Of a DNA stretch of 24,552 nt, positions 3,501 to 15,554 are shown piece by piece. This DNA is from a virus, in IMG/VR virus record IMGVR_UViG_3300048550_000544, positions 1 through 24,552 of that record. One strand, written 5' to 3'. How positions within the stretch are numbered: position 1 is the stretch's first letter; the number at the start of each line of letters is the position of its first letter. Made by a program: the position numbers and the translations under genes. The notes under the pieces were generated by a model. The model saw nothing but the letters and a program-made list of their open reading frames with translations, was not told where the DNA came from and made no database searches.

Positions 3501-5062
3501 ACACTAAAACATCAGTGCAACTCGATCCTATGGCTGCTTTGCTGAAGGGTGTATTAGCATTGCCTCGTCAACAAAAGGGGTTGTCTCCTGTTCCTGAAGA
3601 TTCTAAATCTGCATTTATCAAGGGTGTAACTGACGGCACATTCAAGTTATATCTGGCACCTGATGGTCTTCCTTTAGCTGGTGCTGCTCTAAATGCAGGA
3701 GGATCTTTAGTTGATGCTGCTGGTAATATAATCGGTGGTCTCTTCGGAGGCGGCGGTAGCAGCAGCGATGGCGGTGGAGGAGGTGGAGGAGGAGCAGGAA
3801 GTTCTGATGGTTCTGGTATTAATCTTCCGAAAAATCCTTTCGATGAAGCATATTCTAAACCGGAATTGGATGATCCAATTGCTGATTATTTAAAACTGGC
3901 ATATGGTGATATTCCTGCTGATGGTCCTTCTGGTAATCCGTTTTCGCAACCTTTAACTAAAGAGGGTATTCTTAATAATTTTTATGGATATAATCCATTA
4001 AGTCTAAAAGATGGGTGGGAGATATTTAAAGCTAAATTAGGTCTTCCTGGCGTTGGGTCTCCTAAACCTAAAGAAGAACCTAATGAATCTTCTGATGTAA
4101 AAACTAGTGATATTGATTTTAGTAATTTATTTAATTTCAGTTCTGGTGGTCAACTTCCTAATAATCTCCCTCAGGCATTTTTAGGTAAAGTATTCAAATC
4201 TGTTGGTAAGGCAATTAGTGGCGCATTTAATGGTATAAAGAAAGCAGTTAGTAGTGTTGGTAATGCAATTGGAGGATTCTTAAATTCTCCAATTGGTCAA
4301 GTTGTTGGTTTGGGATTATCATTTATTCCTGGTGTTGCTCCCATCATGGCGGGTATTAGAGCAGTTGTTGCTCTATCACAAGGCGATATTATGGGTGCCA
4401 TCGTTGGTGGTATGGGTGCTCTGGGTGGTATGTTCCCTGGTACTTTTGGTGCGGAAGGTACATTCTTCGCTGGACTGAATAGTACCTTTGGTGATGGTCT
4501 TGGTGGTGTTATGAAGGGATTCCTTACTGGAGGATTTGGTGGCGCATTAGGTGCATTACCTGGAATGTTACCTCAAGGTATGCAAAGTTTTTTCCAAGGT
4601 GTTGGGGGATTCTTAGAAGAAAATCAAGGTGTTGCTAAGATTGCTCAGATGCTTCCTGGTGTTATGGCATCAACTGGTTTTGGACAGATGCTTGGTTTAC
4701 CAGACCCCCAAGCAATGGGTGGAATGGGATCCCTTCAGGAAGTATTTCAGGAAGGTAATGCTACTGGTATTCTTGCTGCTGTTATGGGACAAGCAATGGG
4801 TAACAGAAGTTTCCAAGATGCACTTACTGATATATCGGCAGAATTAGGTGTTGATCCTACAGTTCTTGGTGGTCAAATGAGTAGATCTCGTATGAGAAAT
4901 CCTATGGATGAAAAGAGTAGAGAATTAGCACTACAGACAAAAATTGAAGTTCAGCAAGTTCCTATTGTCGTTGAAAAACTAGTTGCAATACCTAAGGGTG
5001 TACCTATAAATAATTATGTCAGGGTGCCTGTTAGAGTTCCTGTAGCACAACCTCAGCAGTAA
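524..5062 (+). CDS. Giant hub/tape-measure-like virion protein with lambda-R-like and M23 peptidoglycan hydrolase domains
   Basis: 1512 residues, GTG start with AAGGAT about eight bases upstream. N-terminal ~250 residues: amphipathic and hydrophobic segments shared with the next protein (GLYSVSMSSIK; GDPENKKKMELF; FGDRLQGLGKIL). Residues ~610-780 resemble the lambda R endolysin fold: LDLIASVEAPGYD (candidate catalytic E618), TIREI, and AAGRYQ (655-660). Residues ~800-930 form an M23 (LytM-like) endopeptidase with all expected zinc/catalytic positions: H825-x3-D829, H874, H911-x-H913. The two enzymes would cut glycan strands and peptide cross-links during DNA entry. A 20-residue motif occurs at 550-569 and again at 973-992, bracketing the enzymatic part. 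A Gly/Ser linker lies at ~1069-1095; the C-terminal third is Gly/Ala-rich and hydrophobic, as in tape-measure-like proteins. Position between gp51-like and gp27 suggests a hub or tape-measure component; that role is inference, while the M23 call is firm. Confidence 0.8.
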   Translation: MAKLDAYKFTGGQPESSDRGIAIAKVVTPLANSSVRALGNITASLSGIDQTLKGLYSVSMSSIKNDKLKEQAERRRLRREQDAAREDEIENRPSPGAASGIAKTGTLTGKDKSWGSKLFESLFGGFGGLLAAAAKFLISLVTFAAVRTILQIVGDPENKKKMELFLTKLQFVWNKISAFTSWLVQDNLLDGFTSLFGEDSTFGDRLQGLGKILIGIIGLKLLLDPFGLIFGVLDLLNARERAAGAPQVPGVDPSAQTPGGSKNPKTQTKIPPTRKRDIILKRSRVDRLSRLKTSLQRIKAKQAGIFDYARVGIRRPGRVPGFINQGLKQTPRMLWRGVKGIFSGAKGFFSRIPVVGTLIHFALSILDVDDQGNIIFDIKGKGEKAAYQSIGGAIGAAAGSFLPVPIIGTIVGSLIGQFGGELIYDMVKGAGKEATFAKMKAGWNTSIERIKSGAEGASNWVSGAWNQWYRGVDKVKFPDVPDWIKNTPGIGNWVSSFPIWGMMVPDPRVITDPMKIGFTYGMNFFKSLFGGVVQSGKTTFLPGANRPAVGQKATLGGKSVVWDGNNWVPEGEDNPYGTATPPVQQSPAVPDSEGSVDPGVSTAGGKEKAILDLIASVEAPGYDAVNGTAAKKLTECTIREIASYAHLQGRSGSGAAGRYQHMPAYIAGRAVVAGFNADTKFTPGVQDKITIAMLNAPPHNMQAFLAKRMSAEAFGSVLAGTWRGFPQGPINARRLGGTEDQTYADSASGRNAAKRGFKWKDFLKKLKQIQGSSASISAPDTTPPGPTPQDTTPTPGMQIGGGDAPISSGYGTRTHPVTGEVGSHHGGIDIAVPSGTYIAVKEPGEVMGAGTYGNYGQVVDIWIPSRGIQLRFAHLSQLLVRTGTKVEAYTPIARSGGGINDPGRGRSTGPHIHFEADTQKDGRTGGGSGNPKSYLSLIHLTKDDPRKSTKVTGKVDTAAPTGQANTVPGRPIGQKATLNGQPVVWDGRNWIPDTKTSVQLDPMAALLKGVLALPRQQKGLSPVPEDSKSAFIKGVTDGTFKLYLAPDGLPLAGAALNAGGSLVDAAGNIIGGLFGGGGSSSDGGGGGGGGAGSSDGSGINLPKNPFDEAYSKPELDDPIADYLKLAYGDIPADGPSGNPFSQPLTKEGILNNFYGYNPLSLKDGWEIFKAKLGLPGVGSPKPKEEPNESSDVKTSDIDFSNLFNFSSGGQLPNNLPQAFLGKVFKSVGKAISGAFNGIKKAVSSVGNAIGGFLNSPIGQVVGLGLSFIPGVAPIMAGIRAVVALSQGDIMGAIVGGMGALGGMFPGTFGAEGTFFAGLNSTFGDGLGGVMKGFLTGGFGGALGALPGMLPQGMQSFFQGVGGFLEENQGVAKIAQMLPGVMASTGFGQMLGLPDPQAMGGMGSLQEVFQEGNATGILAAVMGQAMGNRSFQDALTDISAELGVDPTVLGGQMSRSRMRNPMDEKSRELALQTKIEVQQVPIVVEKLVAIPKGVPINNYVRVPVRVPVAQPQQ
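2171..2230 (+). repeat. 20-residue coding repeat, copy 1 (before the enzyme domains)
   Basis: Encodes a GQKATL-x-G-xx-VVWDG-x-NW-x-P motif at residues 550-569 of the 1512-residue protein. The second copy lies at 3440-3499. Fourteen or more of the twenty residues are identical. Together they bracket both hydrolase domains. Confidence 0.85.
3440..3499 (+). repeat. 20-residue coding repeat, copy 2 (after the enzyme domains)
   Basis: Encodes the same GQKATL-x-G-xx-VVWDG-x-NW-x-P motif at residues 973-992, shortly after the M23 domain. Nucleotide identity with copy 1 is incomplete, so the duplication is not recent. Confidence 0.85.
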
Positions 5063-5065
5063 ATA

Positions 5066-8000
5066 ATGGCAATACAACAGAAGTTAAATATATACAAGTT
5101 TGTAAAAGCTCCGAATATTAGTGCTGACGCGGTAAGGGATGCTGGTCCTTTGGGGAAGAGTCTAGTACAATCCCAGTCAGCTCAACTCAAATCACTTAAT
5201 AGCATTGGTAATGCTTTAAACAGTATTGGTGCATCATTAAAAGGTTTATATGGTGTTGAGCTTAATAGACTAAAGAAAGAGAAAAAAGAAGCAAGACAAA
5301 ATTTTACTCCCAATTATACAAAAGCGCAGGGACTATCGACAAAGACTTTAAAATCTCCTTTTAAGGGTTTACCAATAAAAGGATTTTGGGAAGGTTTACT
5401 TGGTATTTTAGGTGGTCTATTAAAGTTTTTCATTATTAGACCAATTCTTGAATATCTGGCAAATCCAGAAAATCAGGAGAAGATCAAGAATACCCTTGAG
5501 ACATTTAAGAAAATATTTGTTTGGATATACGAGTTTACTCGAAGTAGAATTGTTGGAATTGTTGATGGTCTTTATGACTTTTTCAATGAAGAAAATAGTT
5601 GGCAAGACCGCCTTGGCGGATTTCTGCGAGGTTTTGGTAATCTAGGAGTTTTATTATTAGGACTACGATGGCTTTCTAATCCCCTACGGATTATCAGTGA
5701 TCTGAGATCGGTTTTAACATTCTTCTATAATAGACTTAGGGGTGCGAAAAATAGATTAACTGGAGCAACACCAGGACGAACTACTGCTGGCAAACCTCGC
5801 GGTGGTAGAGTTAAAGGTGCTGTTAAAGGTGTTCTTGGTACTGCTGTTGTACTTGGTACTGGTGCTTATGCTTGGGGTAGATTCAAAGAATACCAAGAGG
5901 AGCAAAACGCGAAGGCTGATGAAATCAATGATAATCAGCAGGGTAGTATTGATGGATTAAGTGCTGGAGTAGAAGATCTTATCAATCAATTTGAGGAAAA
6001 ATATCTTAATATTGTTGATCCTTCAGGTGTTGAAGAAAAATCAAAAGGTGGTAGCGTAAGGAGAAGAGGAAGAAAATCGTCTGGCGGATATATTTCTGGA
6101 CCTCAGTCTGGATATCCTGTATCGCTTGATGGTAGCGGTGTTGACTTTATCGGTCATGGTACAGAGTATGTTAGTCAAAAATCAGGTGGTGATGCATTTG
6201 TCGTTCCTTTAGATACACCTCATACTAGAAAAGATCCGAAACTAACTGATAAGCGAATTGCTCAGGCAATGGGCAAGGGTTATGGATTTAGTGAAGGTGG
6301 TGAAGTACAATATAAACCTGAAGGGGGTTGGATTACTGGACCTATGTCTGGTTATCCTGTTTCTGTTAAAGGAAGAAATAGACCAGATTTTATTGCACAC
6401 GGTACAGAATATATTTCAAAAGGTTCTTCTGGTGATTTTGGTGTTATTCCCTTCCATAAAGGTGTTTCTAAGGAATATACCAAAACTTTAGCACAAATGA
6501 CTGCTATGGGTGGCGGTACTTTGCCTTCTAAAAAACCATCCAAAAAAGATTTTAAGACTGGTTCTGGACTAGGAACTAGAAATGCTGCACCTCAGGCATT
6601 TTTAGGTAAAATGTTCTCCGGTATTGGTAATGCTGTCAAGGGTATGTTTGGTGGTGGCGGATCTTCGGGAGGATCTTCGGGAGGATCTTCTGGTGGCGGA
6701 GGAGGAGGCGGCGGATTCTTTAGCGGAATCAGTAACTTCTTCGGCGGCATGTTTGGTGGCAAGAAGAATGAAAGTCAATATTCATTTGGTCCATTAGCAA
6801 GTGGTGACAAGTATGGTGCTGCACTTGCTGGCAATAAAACCTTTGGTTTTGATTATAATGAGCAGGGCAATCTCAAAGGCAGCACTTTCTTACCGGGAAT
6901 TTTAAGCCAAGGTCCTGGCATAGGTAGTAAAATTGGTAAGATATTTGGTAACGAATCTCTTGGTGGTAGTATTGGTGGACTACTGAAGCAGTTTGGTGGT
7001 GTCATGGGCAAACAGGAGGGATTTGATTTAGGATCTCTCATTCAAAGTGGACTTGGAGTTGCTGGTCAGTTCTTTAAAGATAAGAAAGGACTTCTTGGTA
7101 AGATTGGAAAGTATGCTGGTATTTTCGCAGGACCGAATGCAGATAAGTTTACATTTGGCGAAAAGTTGGTCATGGCTGCCAAGATGGCATTGGGAGATAC
7201 TGATGCTGGAAAATATATTGAACCCGTTGCTGATATGTTGGGTGTCAATATTGATAATGTTACTGCCATGGCAGGTCAAGCAGGTATTGCCGGTGGTGGA
7301 ATTAGTAGTCCATATGATATTCCCCCAAACGCTGCTTTTGATTCTGGTCAAAATGTTGGTGTTCAAGGTGGTGGACTTAGAGCCGCAGTAGATTTAGGTA
7401 AATGGGCACTCAGTAGGGGTATGACTGTCATGGGTCACCCAAACTTTAGAAATAACAAATGGTCTGAATTTGGTGCTAACACTGGTATTGGTTACAGTTC
7501 TGCTGGTAGAGAATATATTGGTAATCCTGCTAAAGGAACTCAAAGATCTATGGGTCTTTCTCTTGATGTTAAAGATTATCGAGCAGATGAAGGTGGTCTT
7601 AATAGACTGGCTGCACTTGCGGCTGAGGCATATGGAAATAGAACTGGTCATAAAATTTCAACAATTGCTCATGATGGTTGGGGTTATTGGGCAGCAGGAG
7701 GCAAAAAAGAGAGTCCTGGATCATTTGGATATCCAGATAGTTTATACTTAGGTGTTGCTAGAGAAGCACAGCAAGGTGGTGGACAAGGTATTGAAGAAGG
7801 TGCAGTACAATCTTCTGCTATTAATTCGATGATAGAGTCGGGAGCATCCGATATGTCTTATGAAGAGAAGTTACTTGCTGCTCGTGCAAAAGTTAATCAA
7901 TCTCAAATGGAGGATGGTGCTTTAAAAGATTCTAATTGGTTGACGAATATAACTGATTTATTCAACACACCTAAGGGATCTGATAATGAAAGAAATGAAC

Positions 8001-10192: not shown

Positions 10193-10420
10193 ATGGAAAG
10201 CATCGAAAAGCACATTGAAAAAGACAAAGAAATCCTTCAAGATCCCACAACAAATCCTCAAATGCGCCGTCATATTGAAGGCGAACTGCACGAACTAGAG
10301 GAATATGTAGAGCATCATAAAAAAGAAATCGATGCAGGTGACCATCACGACCCATCTTATCTTGAACTGTTCTGCGATCAGAATCCTTCTGAACCTGAAT
10401 GTTTGATTTATGACGACTGA
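10193..10420 (+). CDS. CP12-like Calvin-cycle regulator
   Basis: 75 residues from the ATG at 10193. An in-frame TTG at 10154 would add 13 residues overlapping gp27 but fits the family less well. The C-terminus, SYLELFCDQNPSEPECLIYDD, matches the diagnostic CP12 tail, with the Cys pair C61-x8-C70 and the final YDD. The N-terminus (MESIEKHIEKD) and the helical GELHELEEYVEHH also follow the CP12 layout. CP12 is a small redox-controlled scaffold that binds GAPDH and phosphoribulokinase and switches off the Calvin cycle; phage copies are thought to steer host carbon into the pentose phosphate pathway. The N-terminal Cys pair of standard CP12 is absent, so the redox clamp for phosphoribulokinase may be lost while the GAPDH-binding tail is kept. 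It overlaps the next gene by 11 bases. Confidence 0.8.
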   Translation: MESIEKHIEKDKEILQDPTTNPQMRRHIEGELHELEEYVEHHKKEIDAGDHHDPSYLELFCDQNPSEPECLIYDD

Positions 10421-10862
10421 CTTTGAAGAATGCCTTACGGGCAAATATAATAATTTCAGACAAGCACAATCAGCACCAACTCTTTTCTCTCAGATTGAGA
10501 TTCTTTGGGAGAAAATTCCCGGTGGTCTGCATTCTCGGCAATGGTATAGACGCGAAAGGGATCATCCTTATAGAGAAGGACATCATAAGGTGATTCATGT
10601 TTCCGATAAGGAGGTTGTTGTAGAAAACTACAATATAGACTGGACACGCAGAGAGAATTGTGATATGATATTCAAGTTCGATGGTAGAGCATGGAATGGC
10701 AACATCTTAGGTAATAAGTGTTATCGTAGAAATGCTTGTGTTCAATCAGAAGTTATTCTTATCAATAACCAACTACATAGTAGAGACAAGGGATTGGATG
10801 AGTCTGGTAACCGCGTATGGGGATCTGATACTCTATACATTTTTACTAAACAGGGCGAATAG
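10410..10862 (+). CDS. cpeT: CpeT/CpcT-family phycobiliprotein lyase
   Basis: 150 residues; the ATG overlaps the CP12-like stop by 11 bases, implying coupled translation. Family features in order: LTGKYNNFRQAQSAP at the N-terminus, an RRERDHPYREG strand region, GNKCYRRNACVQSE (G101, C104), and the closing DKGLDESGNRVWGSDTLYIF. These fit the T-type lyases, which attach phycoerythrobilin to phycobiliproteins or chaperone it in host cells. Phage members are shorter than host ones, as here. The expected action is in the infected cell's cytoplasm, altering bilin handling and light harvesting. The last codons and TAG lie inside the following tRNA-Val gene, so the mRNA is lost when the tRNA is cut out unless transcripts are left unprocessed. 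The family call is confident; catalysis versus bilin binding cannot be told from sequence. Confidence 0.85.
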   Translation: MTTDFEECLTGKYNNFRQAQSAPTLFSQIEILWEKIPGGLHSRQWYRRERDHPYREGHHKVIHVSDKEVVVENYNIDWTRRENCDMIFKFDGRAWNGNILGNKCYRRNACVQSEVILINNQLHSRDKGLDESGNRVWGSDTLYIFTKQGE

Positions 10863-10924
10863 CTCAGCGGTAGAGCTACTCGTTTACACCGAGTCGGTCG
10901 GGGGTTCGATCCCCTCTTCGCCCA
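10853..10924 (+). tRNA. tRNA-Val (anticodon UAC)
   Basis: A complete cloverleaf of 72 bases. Acceptor GGGCGAA pairs perfectly with TTCGCCC at 10917-10923 and A is the discriminator. The D stem is GCTC/GAGC, and the anticodon stem ACTCG/CGAGT encloses loop TTTACAC with TAC at 10885-10887. T stem GGGGG/CCCTC carries loop TTCGATC. CCA is not encoded. The first ten bases overlap the 3' end of the CpeT-like gene. Confidence 0.95.
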
Positions 10925-10940
10925 TTAATGCTTTATTATT

Positions 10941-11630
10941 ATGATATTTGATTTGTTTCCAGTTCCAGTCTATGTTGTTGAATTGGATGGATATAATAAA
11001 AACTTAATGATTGGTGAGATTGACAAAATCTGCGATAAGCCTTATAATGAATTTGATCAGAAACTAAAAGATCCTAATGTCGATCGGGTAAAACTGCTGA
11101 AACAATACTTTGTCGATCAAACAAGTTACTTTGGCGATACTAAAAAGTCTGGTCACATTCACTTTAAACCTGGATTTCAATGGCTGAATGATCAAATTAA
11201 ATATCACACAACACAATATCTAGATGGTATGGGTTATCTTAGTGATTGTGATATCGCAGTTCAAAAATCTTGGGCAGTTCGATTGAATCGTGGCGGTTCG
11301 GTTCAACCTCATAGGCATATTAATTCTCATATTAGTTGTGTCTTTTATCTTCAAACAGGTGAGAGTAGTTTAAAATTTATTAGACCACCAACTCACTGTA
11401 CAGAATATCTACCTCTACAAACTGCAACCGAAGGGAAATATAGTTCTAACGAAAGTTTTGTCCCTGTTGAAAGTGGAATGTTAGTATTATTTCCTGCTCA
11501 ATTGCGTCATATGGTAGAACCTTACGATGATGAAACTACTAGATATTCTGTATCTTATGACTTAATGTTAGTCGCAAAAAAACCCATGGAAAACATGGTT
11601 GTTAATCCCAAACAATGGAAATTTTTATGA
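10941..11630 (+). CDS. 2OG-Fe(II) oxygenase-like protein (first of two)
   Basis: 229 residues, ATG 17 bases after tRNA-Val. The core runs KSWAVRLNRGGSVQPHRHINSHISCVFYL, with candidate iron ligands in H124-R-H126. The distal FPAQLRHMVEPY supplies H190, and R201 in TTRYSVSYDL would bind the 2-oxoglutarate carboxylate. This His...His-x10-Arg order is that of the double-stranded beta-helix 2OG-Fe(II) dioxygenases common in cyanophages. These couple 2-oxoglutarate decarboxylation to oxidation of a substrate, usually hydroxylation; no substrate is known here. Its stop TGA overlaps the ATG of the next gene (ATGA). Adjacent to a second family member at 12307, from which it is clearly diverged. It is not a virion protein by appearance, though its position in the late region means it could be made late. 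Confidence 0.78.
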   Translation: MIFDLFPVPVYVVELDGYNKNLMIGEIDKICDKPYNEFDQKLKDPNVDRVKLLKQYFVDQTSYFGDTKKSGHIHFKPGFQWLNDQIKYHTTQYLDGMGYLSDCDIAVQKSWAVRLNRGGSVQPHRHINSHISCVFYLQTGESSLKFIRPPTHCTEYLPLQTATEGKYSSNESFVPVESGMLVLFPAQLRHMVEPYDDETTRYSVSYDLMLVAKKPMENMVVNPKQWKFL

Positions 11631-12307
11631 AAAATGTTATCATTTCTGGCCTTATTCTTGGTGCTCTACATGGAATGTCTATTCCAGTTATTGCTGGTGA
11701 AGATAAGATCACTAAAGGATACAACAGCATGGATGCTATGGGTTGTATGTTAGTGCGTGAATGTAAGAAAGATGTAGAAGAAGTTCACTCCCTTCTTGAT
11801 ATCTCCTCACAGTATGATAATACTGAAGAGTTCACATCAGTAGCACATGAATTTAATACCATGCTGATGGCGATGAATCAGATTGGTATCAAAGTATTCC
11901 TTGCTGATCAACGATACTTCCCTACAATGCATCGTGGTGTATACCACACTGTGTCCAACAATGTGTATCTCAACAGGAATTATATGGGTGATCCTGGTAC
12001 ACTGATGATGTTGATGCGTCATGAAGGATGGCACGCTGCACAGGATTGTATGGCAGGAACTATTGATAATAGTTTGATCGCTATTATTAGACCAGAGGAT
12101 GAAGTTCCTATGATCTGGAGAGTAATGGCAGAGCGTACATATCCTAAGAATGCTGTTCCTTGGGAAGCAGAAGCACAGTGGGCAGGTAGAACAGAGAACA
12201 TGACTATGGATGCCCTTACTGCTTGTGCAAAGGGTAACATGTGGGAAGTCTATAAACCGACTCCTCTCACTCGTAAATGGTTGTTGGAAAATAATTATAT
12301 CAAATAA
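11627..12307 (+). CDS. Exported HExxH metallopeptidase-like protein
   Basis: 226 residues from the ATG at 11627, which overlaps the upstream TGA; an in-frame ATG at 11615 would put charged residues ahead of the signal and is less likely. The first ~24 residues form a signal peptide: K2, a hydrophobic run from V4 to L14, and a V-I-A cleavage-like site at 21-23. H132-E133-G-W-H136 within LMRHEGWHAAQDC is a zincin HExxH motif. Downstream PWEAEAQW (E180, E182) offers a third zinc ligand 40-50 residues away, as in gluzincin-type enzymes. Five Cys residues are present after the signal, so disulphides are possible outside the cytoplasm. It probably acts in the host periplasm or envelope; its substrate is unknown. 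Its stop overlaps the next ATG (TAATG), locking it between two oxygenase-like genes. Confidence 0.65.
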   Translation: MKNVIISGLILGALHGMSIPVIAGEDKITKGYNSMDAMGCMLVRECKKDVEEVHSLLDISSQYDNTEEFTSVAHEFNTMLMAMNQIGIKVFLADQRYFPTMHRGVYHTVSNNVYLNRNYMGDPGTLMMLMRHEGWHAAQDCMAGTIDNSLIAIIRPEDEVPMIWRVMAERTYPKNAVPWEAEAQWAGRTENMTMDALTACAKGNMWEVYKPTPLTRKWLLENNYIK

Positions 12308-12942
12308 TGATTTTTAATTTACCCGTTAAAACTTTTAGAGTTGATCCTACCTTATATGATAAGGAGCAAATCATTTCTCGTATTACTGGTAACTATGCAT
12401 TAGATCCTAATAGAAATGTAAAACCAGATATGGGACCTTTACATCAATGTTATGTTGATTATGGCAATCCAAAATTCAATGATCCTGATTACACTAAATT
12501 AGCTCCTGTCTATCAGACCATAGTTGAAAAATTCTTGGGAACTATGGATCTTGATGAAGGAACCAAATATACATGGGAGTTTGTCAATTATGCTGCATAT
12601 GGAGACACAAAGTCTACTATGAGAAGTCATTTTCATAGTTTTTGTGACTTCTCTGCAGTACATTATATGCAGTTTGATGAGGAAAATCATTCTCCTACAG
12701 TTTTTTCTAATCCTTTTATTTGGGGAGAGTTTACTAAACATTCTAGACCAAATCTTGATAGATGTTTGAAAAAAACAATTAATAATTCTTGGGTAGAAGA
12801 ATGGTACAAAATTCCAACTAAAGAAGATGATATGGTATTTTTTCCTGCACAGTTGAAACATGAGGTCATGCCACAGGGTAAGAGTGACAAACTTAGAATT
12901 ACTGTAGCTATCAATATCACTATTGATATTATAATGAGTTAA
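12307..12942 (+). CDS. 2OG-Fe(II) oxygenase-like protein (second of two)
   Basis: 211 residues; the ATG shares a base with the preceding TAA. Candidate iron-binding residues are H108-F-H110 within RSHFHSFCDFSAVHYMQF, and H185 in FFPAQLKHEVMP; R197 in KLRITVAINI would hold 2-oxoglutarate. The FFPAQLKH segment closely parallels FPAQLRH in the 10941 gene, and both genes begin MIF, so the two are homologues with different specificities. This copy has a longer acidic insert (QFDEENHSPTVFSNPF) between the metal motifs. Likely a cytoplasmic oxidation or hydroxylation enzyme of unknown substrate. The 3' end is followed by a late-type box ahead of gp5, so this is the last gene of the accessory block. 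Confidence 0.72.
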   Translation: MIFNLPVKTFRVDPTLYDKEQIISRITGNYALDPNRNVKPDMGPLHQCYVDYGNPKFNDPDYTKLAPVYQTIVEKFLGTMDLDEGTKYTWEFVNYAAYGDTKSTMRSHFHSFCDFSAVHYMQFDEENHSPTVFSNPFIWGEFTKHSRPNLDRCLKKTINNSWVEEWYKIPTKEDDMVFFPAQLKHEVMPQGKSDKLRITVAINITIDIIMS

Positions 12943-12948
12943 TAAATA
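12941..12948 (+). promoter_or_regulatory. Late-type promoter box AATAAATA upstream of gp5
   Basis: AATAAATA lies 20 bases before the gp5 ATG and overlaps the end of the preceding gene's stop. The following CTTAAAAG resembles the ACTAAAAAG after the box at 20241. A separate promoter would explain how gp5 keeps late expression although it is cut off from gp27 by the accessory genes. Confidence 0.6.
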
Positions 12949-12968
12949 CTTAAAAGACCCTAGACGTA

Positions 12969-15317
12969 ATGGCATTCAATGTAGACGGTATAACCTCTGA
13001 ATCTACAACCAATTTTATTGGTAAAGACGGATTCTTTTGGTGGGTCGGTGAAGTAGAAGATAACGAAGATCCTATGGAGATTGGTAGGGTTAAAGTCAGA
13101 ATTTTAGGATATTATACTAACTTTAGAGGTGGTACTGTAGGTGATCTACCTACAGATTATCTACCATGGGCAACTGTGTTGCAGCATACTTCTCAGGCAG
13201 GTAATGATGGTCAAGGAGAATCCTCCGGACAATTGCAACCCGGTGCGGTTGTTATGGGATTTTTCATGGATGGTGAGTATGCTCAAATGCCAATTGTGAT
13301 TGGTGTTATGAGAGTTGAAAAGTCTGATCGAACATTACAGAGTAGACTTTTTTCATTCTCTAATCAAACTATTCCATCTGGTAATGGCGTAAACAAATCT
13401 GCAAAACATCCTGCAGATATTAATGTGGTAAAACCTGAAGCACCTTTAAGGCAAGGTTCTACCAATGTTGTTGCATATCCTGGTCAGAAGTCAACAAACA
13501 ATGGATCAGAAGGTTCTCCTAAAAATATAGGTAATGCAAAGATATCTGGTAGTTCTTCTAATCCAATTAAACCAATTGATCCTGAGAATCCTATTCCTGT
13601 AGCGAATGGGGTTGGTGGTCCATGGTTAAGTCTTGAATATAAGTTATCCTATTTAATTGAAGATTTAGCAAATAATCTTTCCACTCTAATAAAGAGTAAT
13701 GGGTACTATTTGGATATGGTAACTGGTAAGAAAGTTACTGAAGGAGATCTTACTAGAAGTATTGGTAATTATATTGGTGCAGTATATGCTCAGATTATCT
13801 CAGCAATGAGGGAATCTTTAGTTAATCTTGCTACTGATCTAGAAAAGAAGAAGACCCTTACATATTCTAATGGAGTGCCTACTAATGTGCAGAAAAGACT
13901 TCAGAGTGCCATTAGTAAAGTTTTAACTACATCCTGTTCTATGGATCAAAACTTGGAGATTTATGTAAATGATTCTCTTAAACCGGTTAATGATGCTGTT
14001 GACAAATATCTAGCATCAACACTTGATAGGCAAGAATTAGTTGTTAAGACTGTAGATAAAGTGATCGAGAGTATCACTACTACGGCAAAAAGCATTACAA
14101 CTGAAATCGGTGATGTAACAAAACAGATCAAAGAAGGTGTGCGGGATACTGATACTCTAAGCGTGATTGAACATTGGGAAACTAAGAGTACGGTATTTGC
14201 ATTGAGCACTAATCTCACAGAGATGCATAAAACAAATTTGACAGGACTTATGAAAGTTCTAGCAACATTTACTAGTGCGTCTTGTGAAAGAAACCCATCT
14301 ATGCATCTTGCACATAGACATGGATGGTTTCCTTTATATGGTGTTACGCATGGTACACCAGATCAAATAGAAAAACTCTCTAAAGTTAGAGGTGAGGACG
14401 GTAATAGATTATTCTCTCTCATGTTTAATGATGCAGATCCATATCTAACAACGGCTAAGAATTATCCAAACGGAGCATATGATTTGTATCTTGGTACACC
14501 TGGTCGTCAAGGTCAGGTGCATAAACATGCCAATGGAACAACACATTCATCGATTTCATTCAATAATGCTCAGTATGCTGAAAAAGTTGCGAGAGATAAT
14601 TATCGTAAAGCTAATCCAGATGCTAGTCAGGAAGTTGTAGATGCTTACGTTGCTGAATATGTAAAAACTACAACTGGAGAATTGGGTGATACGGGTAATT
14701 TGATTGCAGATCATATTACATATGCTGGTGTTCTTACACAGGAAGTTCATGGTGATGATTGTAAGTTAGTCAATAAAGATTATGTTAGAACTGTTGAAGG
14801 TGATTACTATCTGAAAGTCAGTGGTAACATGCATATTGAAGTTGGTGGAGGATTTTTTCTTGGTGCTGAGGGATATGGAAAGGAAGGTATTCAACAACAT
14901 CAACTTAGATTTGGATCTGACGTTAACATGAATGTTGTTGGTGCTAAGTTTGAATTGCAATCTTCCGAGTCTGTAATTTCATCTGTGATGACAAAAGTTA
15001 CAGGTAGTATGTATGAGAACTCTTGTAATCAGCAGAATAGAAGTGGTCTGGAACTTAATATGTCTGCCGAAAGTTCTATCATCATGTCTACTCCTCATTT
15101 ATTGCAGTTAATTAATCTTGAGAATTATGAATCACCTAAGAGTGTGACGGGATTGAGAACGGTTGTTAGGGGTGGTGTTGAATTGTTAATGGATCCTACA
15201 AGAGCGGGAGATTATCGAGTGTCATTGACCAATGATAGTTCTGCCTATAGAGATCCAATTGCCCATCCGGACAAATACAGGATTCTAAGGCAGGATACGC
15301 AGTTGACACAGTTCTAA
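12969..15317 (+). CDS. 5: Baseplate hub/spike protein gp5, without recognisable lysozyme domain
   Basis: 782 residues. The N-terminus (FFWWVGEVEDNEDPMEIGRVKVRILG; LPWATVLQ; QLQPGAVVMGFFMDG) is the gp5/VgrG OB fold that seats on gp27. Residues ~612-720 (GDYYLKVSGNMHIEVGGG and onward) form the repetitive beta-strand region of the triple-stranded spike needle. Between them T4 gp5 has a T4-lysozyme-like domain. Here residues ~216-430 are a long helical, charged, coiled-coil-like region, followed by His-containing loops (HLAHRHGW; QVHKHANGTTHSS); no lysozyme catalytic pattern is visible. The protein is therefore probably a spike without its own muramidase, unlike the ~575-residue T4 protein. The enzymatic domains of the 524 gene could replace it. 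The -35 hexamer of a strong promoter is embedded in its last codons. Confidence 0.85.
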   Translation: MAFNVDGITSESTTNFIGKDGFFWWVGEVEDNEDPMEIGRVKVRILGYYTNFRGGTVGDLPTDYLPWATVLQHTSQAGNDGQGESSGQLQPGAVVMGFFMDGEYAQMPIVIGVMRVEKSDRTLQSRLFSFSNQTIPSGNGVNKSAKHPADINVVKPEAPLRQGSTNVVAYPGQKSTNNGSEGSPKNIGNAKISGSSSNPIKPIDPENPIPVANGVGGPWLSLEYKLSYLIEDLANNLSTLIKSNGYYLDMVTGKKVTEGDLTRSIGNYIGAVYAQIISAMRESLVNLATDLEKKKTLTYSNGVPTNVQKRLQSAISKVLTTSCSMDQNLEIYVNDSLKPVNDAVDKYLASTLDRQELVVKTVDKVIESITTTAKSITTEIGDVTKQIKEGVRDTDTLSVIEHWETKSTVFALSTNLTEMHKTNLTGLMKVLATFTSASCERNPSMHLAHRHGWFPLYGVTHGTPDQIEKLSKVRGEDGNRLFSLMFNDADPYLTTAKNYPNGAYDLYLGTPGRQGQVHKHANGTTHSSISFNNAQYAEKVARDNYRKANPDASQEVVDAYVAEYVKTTTGELGDTGNLIADHITYAGVLTQEVHGDDCKLVNKDYVRTVEGDYYLKVSGNMHIEVGGGFFLGAEGYGKEGIQQHQLRFGSDVNMNVVGAKFELQSSESVISSVMTKVTGSMYENSCNQQNRSGLELNMSAESSIIMSTPHLLQLINLENYESPKSVTGLRTVVRGGVELLMDPTRAGDYRVSLTNDSSAYRDPIAHPDKYRILRQDTQLTQF

Positions 15318-15331
15318 GACTCTGCTATAAT
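15303..15331 (+). promoter_or_regulatory. Perfect sigma70-type promoter with extended -10
   Basis: TTGACA at 15303-15308 and TATAAT at 15326-15331 are separated by exactly 17 bases, and TGC directly before the -10 makes an extended -10 (TGn). The -35 lies inside the last codons of gp5 and the gp5 TAA is within the spacer. Such consensus promoters are typical of cyanophage early genes read by the host RNA polymerase. The start point would fall near 15338, about 20 bases before the next ATG. It should drive the small-gene and tRNA island that follows. Confidence 0.85.
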
Positions 15332-15356
15332 ATGAGGGTACTCAAGGGAACCCCCC

Positions 15357-15554
15357 ATGCATACTGACGAACTCTGTCAGGTATTTGTCAACTTCTCAAA
15401 GCGCAGCATCAATCTGCTTGATATTGAAGGTTATGAAAAGACCGTAAATTGGAAGTGGGATGCTGAAGGTGCAGAGGGATTTGCGGAAACAGTATCTGTA
15501 CTACATAGAGTGTTAGATCGCGACATGATCACCTATCAGTGTGCTGTAAAATGA
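15357..15554 (+). CDS. Small protein of unknown function, first gene of the promoter-led island
   Basis: 65 residues, ATG with AAGGGAA six bases upstream, directly behind the consensus promoter. The sequence is acidic, with a VNWKWDAEGAEGFAETVSVLHRVLDRD centre and two Cys residues near the ends. I do not recognise a family. Small acidic early proteins of this kind in phages often act on host enzymes, but nothing here shows a target. The stop TGA overlaps the next ATG, so the two are translationally coupled. Confidence 0.75.
   Translation: MHTDELCQVFVNFSKRSINLLDIEGYEKTVNWKWDAEGAEGFAETVSVLHRVLDRDMITYQCAVK

Follow-up and report, generated by a model that had tools for sequence, protein, structure and literature searches.

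The window analysed here (i.e., the whole 24.5 kb virus record) belongs to a T4-like cyanophage and carries, on its plus strand, three genes between a tRNA gene and the gene for the baseplate hub/tail lysozyme gp5. Upstream of this site lie a phrog_627 gene, whose counterparts in this position in Syn19 and WH25-B are annotated as CP12 or 'carbon metabolic regulator CP12', and a CpeT-like gene (10410..10862, plus strand; PF06206, phrog_488). A tRNA-Val gene (TAC; 10853..10924, found by ARAGORN and Rfam) forms the upstream edge of the variable site. It is followed by ox1 (10941..11630; 229 aa), a 2OG-Fe(II) oxygenase gene of PF13759, TIGR02466 and phrog_81; by the gene for an exported HExxH protein (11627..12307; 226 aa), a putative gluzincin-type metallopeptidase of phrog_591 and T4-GC 945; and by ox2 (12307..12942; 211 aa), a diverged PF13759 oxygenase gene whose product is modelled as a double-stranded beta-helix. 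A T4-type late-promoter-like core, ATAAATA (12942..12948, plus strand), lies between the three genes and gp5 (12969..15317; phrog_694), just upstream of the latter, which forms the downstream edge of the site. We recovered the open reading frames 10941-11630, 11627-12307 and 12307-12942 where an earlier note on this DNA had placed them, together with the two start/stop overlaps it described (ATGA at 11627-11630 and TAATG at 12305-12309). A second in-frame ATG for the exported gene is present at 11615; alignments of relatives agree with the start at 11627.

The two flanking genes are oxygenase-like, as had been proposed, with PF13759 scores of 70.4 and 34.7 bits. Both exceed the curated cutoff of 27, while the TIGR02466 cutoff is reached by ox1 only. 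A double-stranded beta-helix had been expected in both products; it was recovered in the model of ox2 (pLDDT 80), and for ox1 it is supported by the Pfam match. The ox2 model matches 3bvc (E 1.8e-7), 2rg4, PHD2 and P. putida P4H, so that its fold resembles 3bvc, 2rg4 and prolyl hydroxylases. The textbook iron motif of 2OG-Fe(II) oxygenases is HxD/E...H. Neither ox1 nor ox2 contains a literal HxD/E triad; both have HxH (H124-R-H126...H190 in ox1 and H108-F-H110...H185 in ox2), which is also found in most of the PF13759 relatives that were aligned. Similarity between ox1 and ox2 is restricted to one short stretch. Cyanomyoviruses were reported to contain 1-5 oxygenases per genome (Sullivan 2010, PMC3037559), and S-SCSM1 was reported to contain 24 (PMC9602691). 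Our data indicate 1-14 PF13759 places per genome in the 15 genomes examined, and oxygenases elsewhere in cyanophage genomes are also arranged in tandem.

The earlier note held that the overlaps tie the three genes into one translation unit and described the genes as a coupled triad. Translational overlap was rejected as evidence for a unit since overlapping junctions are common, occurring at 580 of the 1237 neighbouring same-strand gene pairs (47%) in related loci. Most loci have no oxygenase adjoining the exported gene, and oxygenases on both sides were found in only 2 of the 114 loci with both flanks, namely the window and L008, whose two flanking oxygenases belong to subfamilies other than those of the window. 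In the close relative L179 (92% DNA identity with window positions 12003-15400), the exported gene comes straight after tRNA-Val, with ox2 behind it, and ox1 is cleanly absent. In a second close relative, L004 (approximately 81% DNA identity on both sides of the site), tRNA-Val, the exported gene and gp5 follow one another, and both oxygenases are absent. The earlier note had named lack of conservation of the neighbourhood as a refutation, and conservation was not found. Since L179 lacks ox1, L004 lacks both oxygenases and flanking pairs are confined to two loci, the triad is not a fixed system, and we rejected it as a conserved operon. Comparison of L179 with the window also shows that the exported genes (L179:117-797 and window 11627-12304) share only 68% amino acid identity despite 96% for ox2; judged from these sequences, the surroundings of ox1 and the exported gene are a case of mosaic replacement.

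A location 'near gp5 with tRNAs' was previously described as one where Synechococcus-enriched genes form a hot spot (Sullivan 2010, PMC3037559). The window resembles this Synechococcus myovirus hot spot in having a tRNA gene beside gp5 and CpeT upstream, and it differs from other gp5/tRNA hot spots in the order ox1-exported gene-ox2, which is found only in the lineage of the window. Our data indicate that ox1, the exported gene and ox2 sit side by side in a known hot spot of gene exchange, from tRNA-Val to gp5, and do not make up a dedicated system; the triad mainly illustrates how look-alike operons arise from hot spots. An ox1-type oxygenase gene just 3' of tRNA-Val is seen in S-RIM32, S-H9-2, S-RS29 and the window (10853-11630), an arrangement that spans two different genome regions and that in S-RS29 includes one small gene between the two.

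Of 145 loci (the window left out), 17 (12%) have an oxygenase immediately upstream of the exported gene; within these loci, the same is true of 27 of 1428 other genes (2%). This enrichment is overstated because the loci share ancestry. These upstream oxygenases fall into eight distinct subfamilies (nine counting the window); of the 30 neighbouring families compared, gp5 alone reaches a similar rate, and there with a single oxygenase cluster. A loose link between oxygenases and the exported gene might therefore exist. In such a partnership, phages would repeatedly pair the exported gene with whatever oxygenase is available, and the 2OG oxygenases would act by hydroxylation, either on the exported protein while it is not yet secreted or on its host target. 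The excess and its spread over subfamilies favour this idea, as does the recurrence of the exported gene-ox2 pair in a second, different genomic context in L024. The pair itself is seen in both L179 and L024, where an ox2 relative directly follows the exported gene; ox2 is 100% identical in L178, 96% in L179 and approximately 47% in L024. Against the partnership stand the majority of exported-gene loci, which have no adjoining oxygenase, the abundance and tandem arrangement of oxygenases elsewhere, and the shared ancestry that inflates the counts. Furthermore, in S-RIM32 and S-H9-2 ox1 relatives (>40% identity) come after tRNA-Val with no exported gene beside them, while in S-RS29 an ox1 relative, also above 40% identity, precedes the exported gene. 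We consider the partnership unlikely; insertion into the hot spot is the simpler reading of the adjacency.

The exported protein belongs to phrog_591 over its full length (profile match of 409 bits, E 7.5e-123, residues 1-226), and the relatives from Syn19 and S-SSM7 are assigned to T4-GC 945. Members are annotated as 'hypothetical protein', or as 'proteolytic enzyme' in S-SCSM1 and WH25-B, and a functional study of the protein or of phrog_591 was not found in the literature. The motif RHE[GV]WHA[AV]Q with a downstream E-x-E-A is present in 173 of 173 relatives examined. R131-H132-E133-x-W-H136 and E180/E182 are invariant among the relatives, and the candidate metal ligands are H132, H136 and either E180 or E182. 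A putative signal peptide spans approximately residues 1-23 (MKNVIISGLILGALHGMSIPVIA), and 162 of 167 long relatives have a hydrophobic N-terminus. The earlier note's description of the middle protein (i.e., signal peptide, H132, H136, E180 and E182) thus extends across the family. For the relatives in L155, L156 and L169, the chosen start gives an N-terminus (MGGSLPKTTGG...) without an obvious signal peptide. Cysteines 40, 46, 141 and 200 are nearly invariant, and C141 and C200 are invariant as far as the T7-like relatives, at 22-28% identity. The near invariance of the four cysteines is in keeping with an oxidising compartment. The median dN/dS of the gene is about 0.10, from the 8 pairs close enough to measure.

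We found the exported protein by tblastn in 366 phage records at a coverage of at least 80%, every one of them a cyanophage. By record name, 301 of these are Synechococcus, 61 Cyanophage and 4 Prochlorococcus, compared to 312, 61 and 24, respectively, for gp5-like matches. The Prochlorococcus-named carriers seen, Syn33 and Syn1, were both isolated on Synechococcus, and a profile search did not find the protein in P-SSM2, P-SSM4 or P-RSM4. The name counts suggested strict specificity for Synechococcus phages, which was rejected since the profile search found the gene in P-TIM40, isolated on Prochlorococcus. The association with Synechococcus hosts is therefore strong but not absolute. The gp5 site of both P-SSM4 and P-TIM40 is without the exported gene, and among phages the position of the gene varies between the gp5 region, the MazG/gp41 region and the gp43 region. 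A scan for host homologues (strict pattern, genome contigs) returned three contigs, none with a cyanobacterial title. One of them (L174), deposited as Nonlabens xiamenensis, contains the exported gene together with psbA and a gene resembling those of 2OG oxygenases, and looks like cyanophage contamination of a bacterial assembly.

A shorter version, phrog_16003, is found in the T7-like cyanophages Syn5, P60, S-TIP28 and S-CBP42. The phrog_16003 proteins (i.e., Syn5 gp14 and those of other T7-like cyanophages) share the signal peptide, RHExxHxxQxC and E-x-E-A with the exported protein, which matches the phrog_16003 profile at E 1.3e-9. They differ in size, at approximately 150-160 aa, and are without an N-terminal region of approximately 40 residues and the C-terminal part. 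In Syn5 and P60 the phage RNA polymerase gene comes immediately after the homologue, while in S-TIP28 and S-CBP42 one small gene separates the two. Genes upstream of RNA polymerase in T7-like phages are early genes, and it is mainly because of this position that we read the exported protein as a factor of early host takeover. For the exported gene itself, we infer early expression from the position of the T7-like relatives only, and the nearest upstream promoter-like motif in the window (10161), which is late-type, argues against it.

The protein could instead act late, in lysis or in disrupting the envelope, or be carried by the virion. The exported gene often adjoins gp5, itself a baseplate/tail lysozyme gene, and the nearest ATAAATA motifs both upstream (10161) and downstream (12942) are of the late type. 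In other phages, however, the gene adjoins MazG/gp41 or lies close to DNA polymerase genes, the T7-like relatives lie just upstream of RNA polymerase, and virion proteins seldom have a Sec signal peptide. A late role is in our view doubtful, and early takeover remains the reading we prefer. Five ATAAATA motifs occur in the window (5006, 10161, 12942, 17349 and 20242), every one on the plus strand and approximately 20-55 bases 5' of a gene start, in the manner of T4-type late promoters.

The AlphaFold2 model of the exported protein (pLDDT 90.2, pTM 0.84) places the HExxH motif (H132-E133-G-W-H136) in a helix of residues 123-142 and E180/E182 in a helix of residues 174-187. This arrangement of an HExxH helix followed by a helix with an invariant Glu is like that of MA-clan gluzincins, and MA-clan enzymes (lethal factor, IrrE/PprI, M61 and selecase) are among the best Foldseek matches in the PDB. 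No PDB fold match reaches significance by itself (best E 0.06; query-normalised TM at most 0.32), and non-peptidases, including a transcriptional regulator, also appear in the list. In the viral library, the matches are cyanophage homologues, including Syn5 gp14. The protein differs from MA-clan gluzincins in its weak fold scores, in an extra N-terminal part, in conserved cysteines, and in having no significant sequence match: Pfam and NCBIfam gave no significant peptidase match, and a sequence search against solved structures gave nothing significant. We read the exported protein as probably a gluzincin-type zinc-dependent metallopeptidase. The want of significant peptidase matches by sequence or fold would also suit a protein that keeps a zincin-like fold for metal binding or another periplasmic role and is no protease. 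This we regard as quite unlikely, as T4-like and T7-like phages alike, over 22-100% identity, keep the catalytic Glu of HExxH without exception.

We propose that the phage makes this probable metallopeptidase during host takeover, a timing suggested by gene position, and that the Sec pathway would secrete it. Disulphides would stabilise the protein in the periplasm or thylakoid lumen, where it may act as a zinc-dependent endopeptidase that cuts a host protein of the periplasm, outer membrane or lumen. A protease with an envelope target is plausible, and cleavage might serve, for example, to block superinfection or to disarm an envelope response. The products of ox1 and ox2 would be separate cytoplasmic enzymes of the AMG type, inserted beside the exported gene and replaceable. 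We favour this explanation as a whole (i.e., hot-spot neighbours, an exported gluzincin-type takeover peptidase and separate, replaceable oxygenases) with moderate confidence, which rests mostly on the three genes not forming a unit and on the metallopeptidase assignment. The oxygenases and the secreted protease might alternatively form a module in which the oxygenase is interchangeable and hydroxylation of the peptidase or of its substrate is part of the action; we think this rather improbable. A reading as a defence system was rejected, as PADLOC matched neither the exported protein nor ox1 and gave only a weak, generic '2OG' match for ox2.

Nearly all sequenced Synechococcus T4-like phages encode this exported probable zinc peptidase, and several T7-like phages encode its shorter form. 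Such breadth suggests that these phages have an envelope or thylakoid-lumen target in common when they infect a globally important phototroph. The protein is a small, conserved, unstudied and testable infection factor for which an obvious active-site mutation suggests itself. One genome holds a tandem, diverged paralogue of the exported gene (L042:3983-4678 and 4671-5312), which has its own signal peptide and an RHEGWHAAQDC motif.
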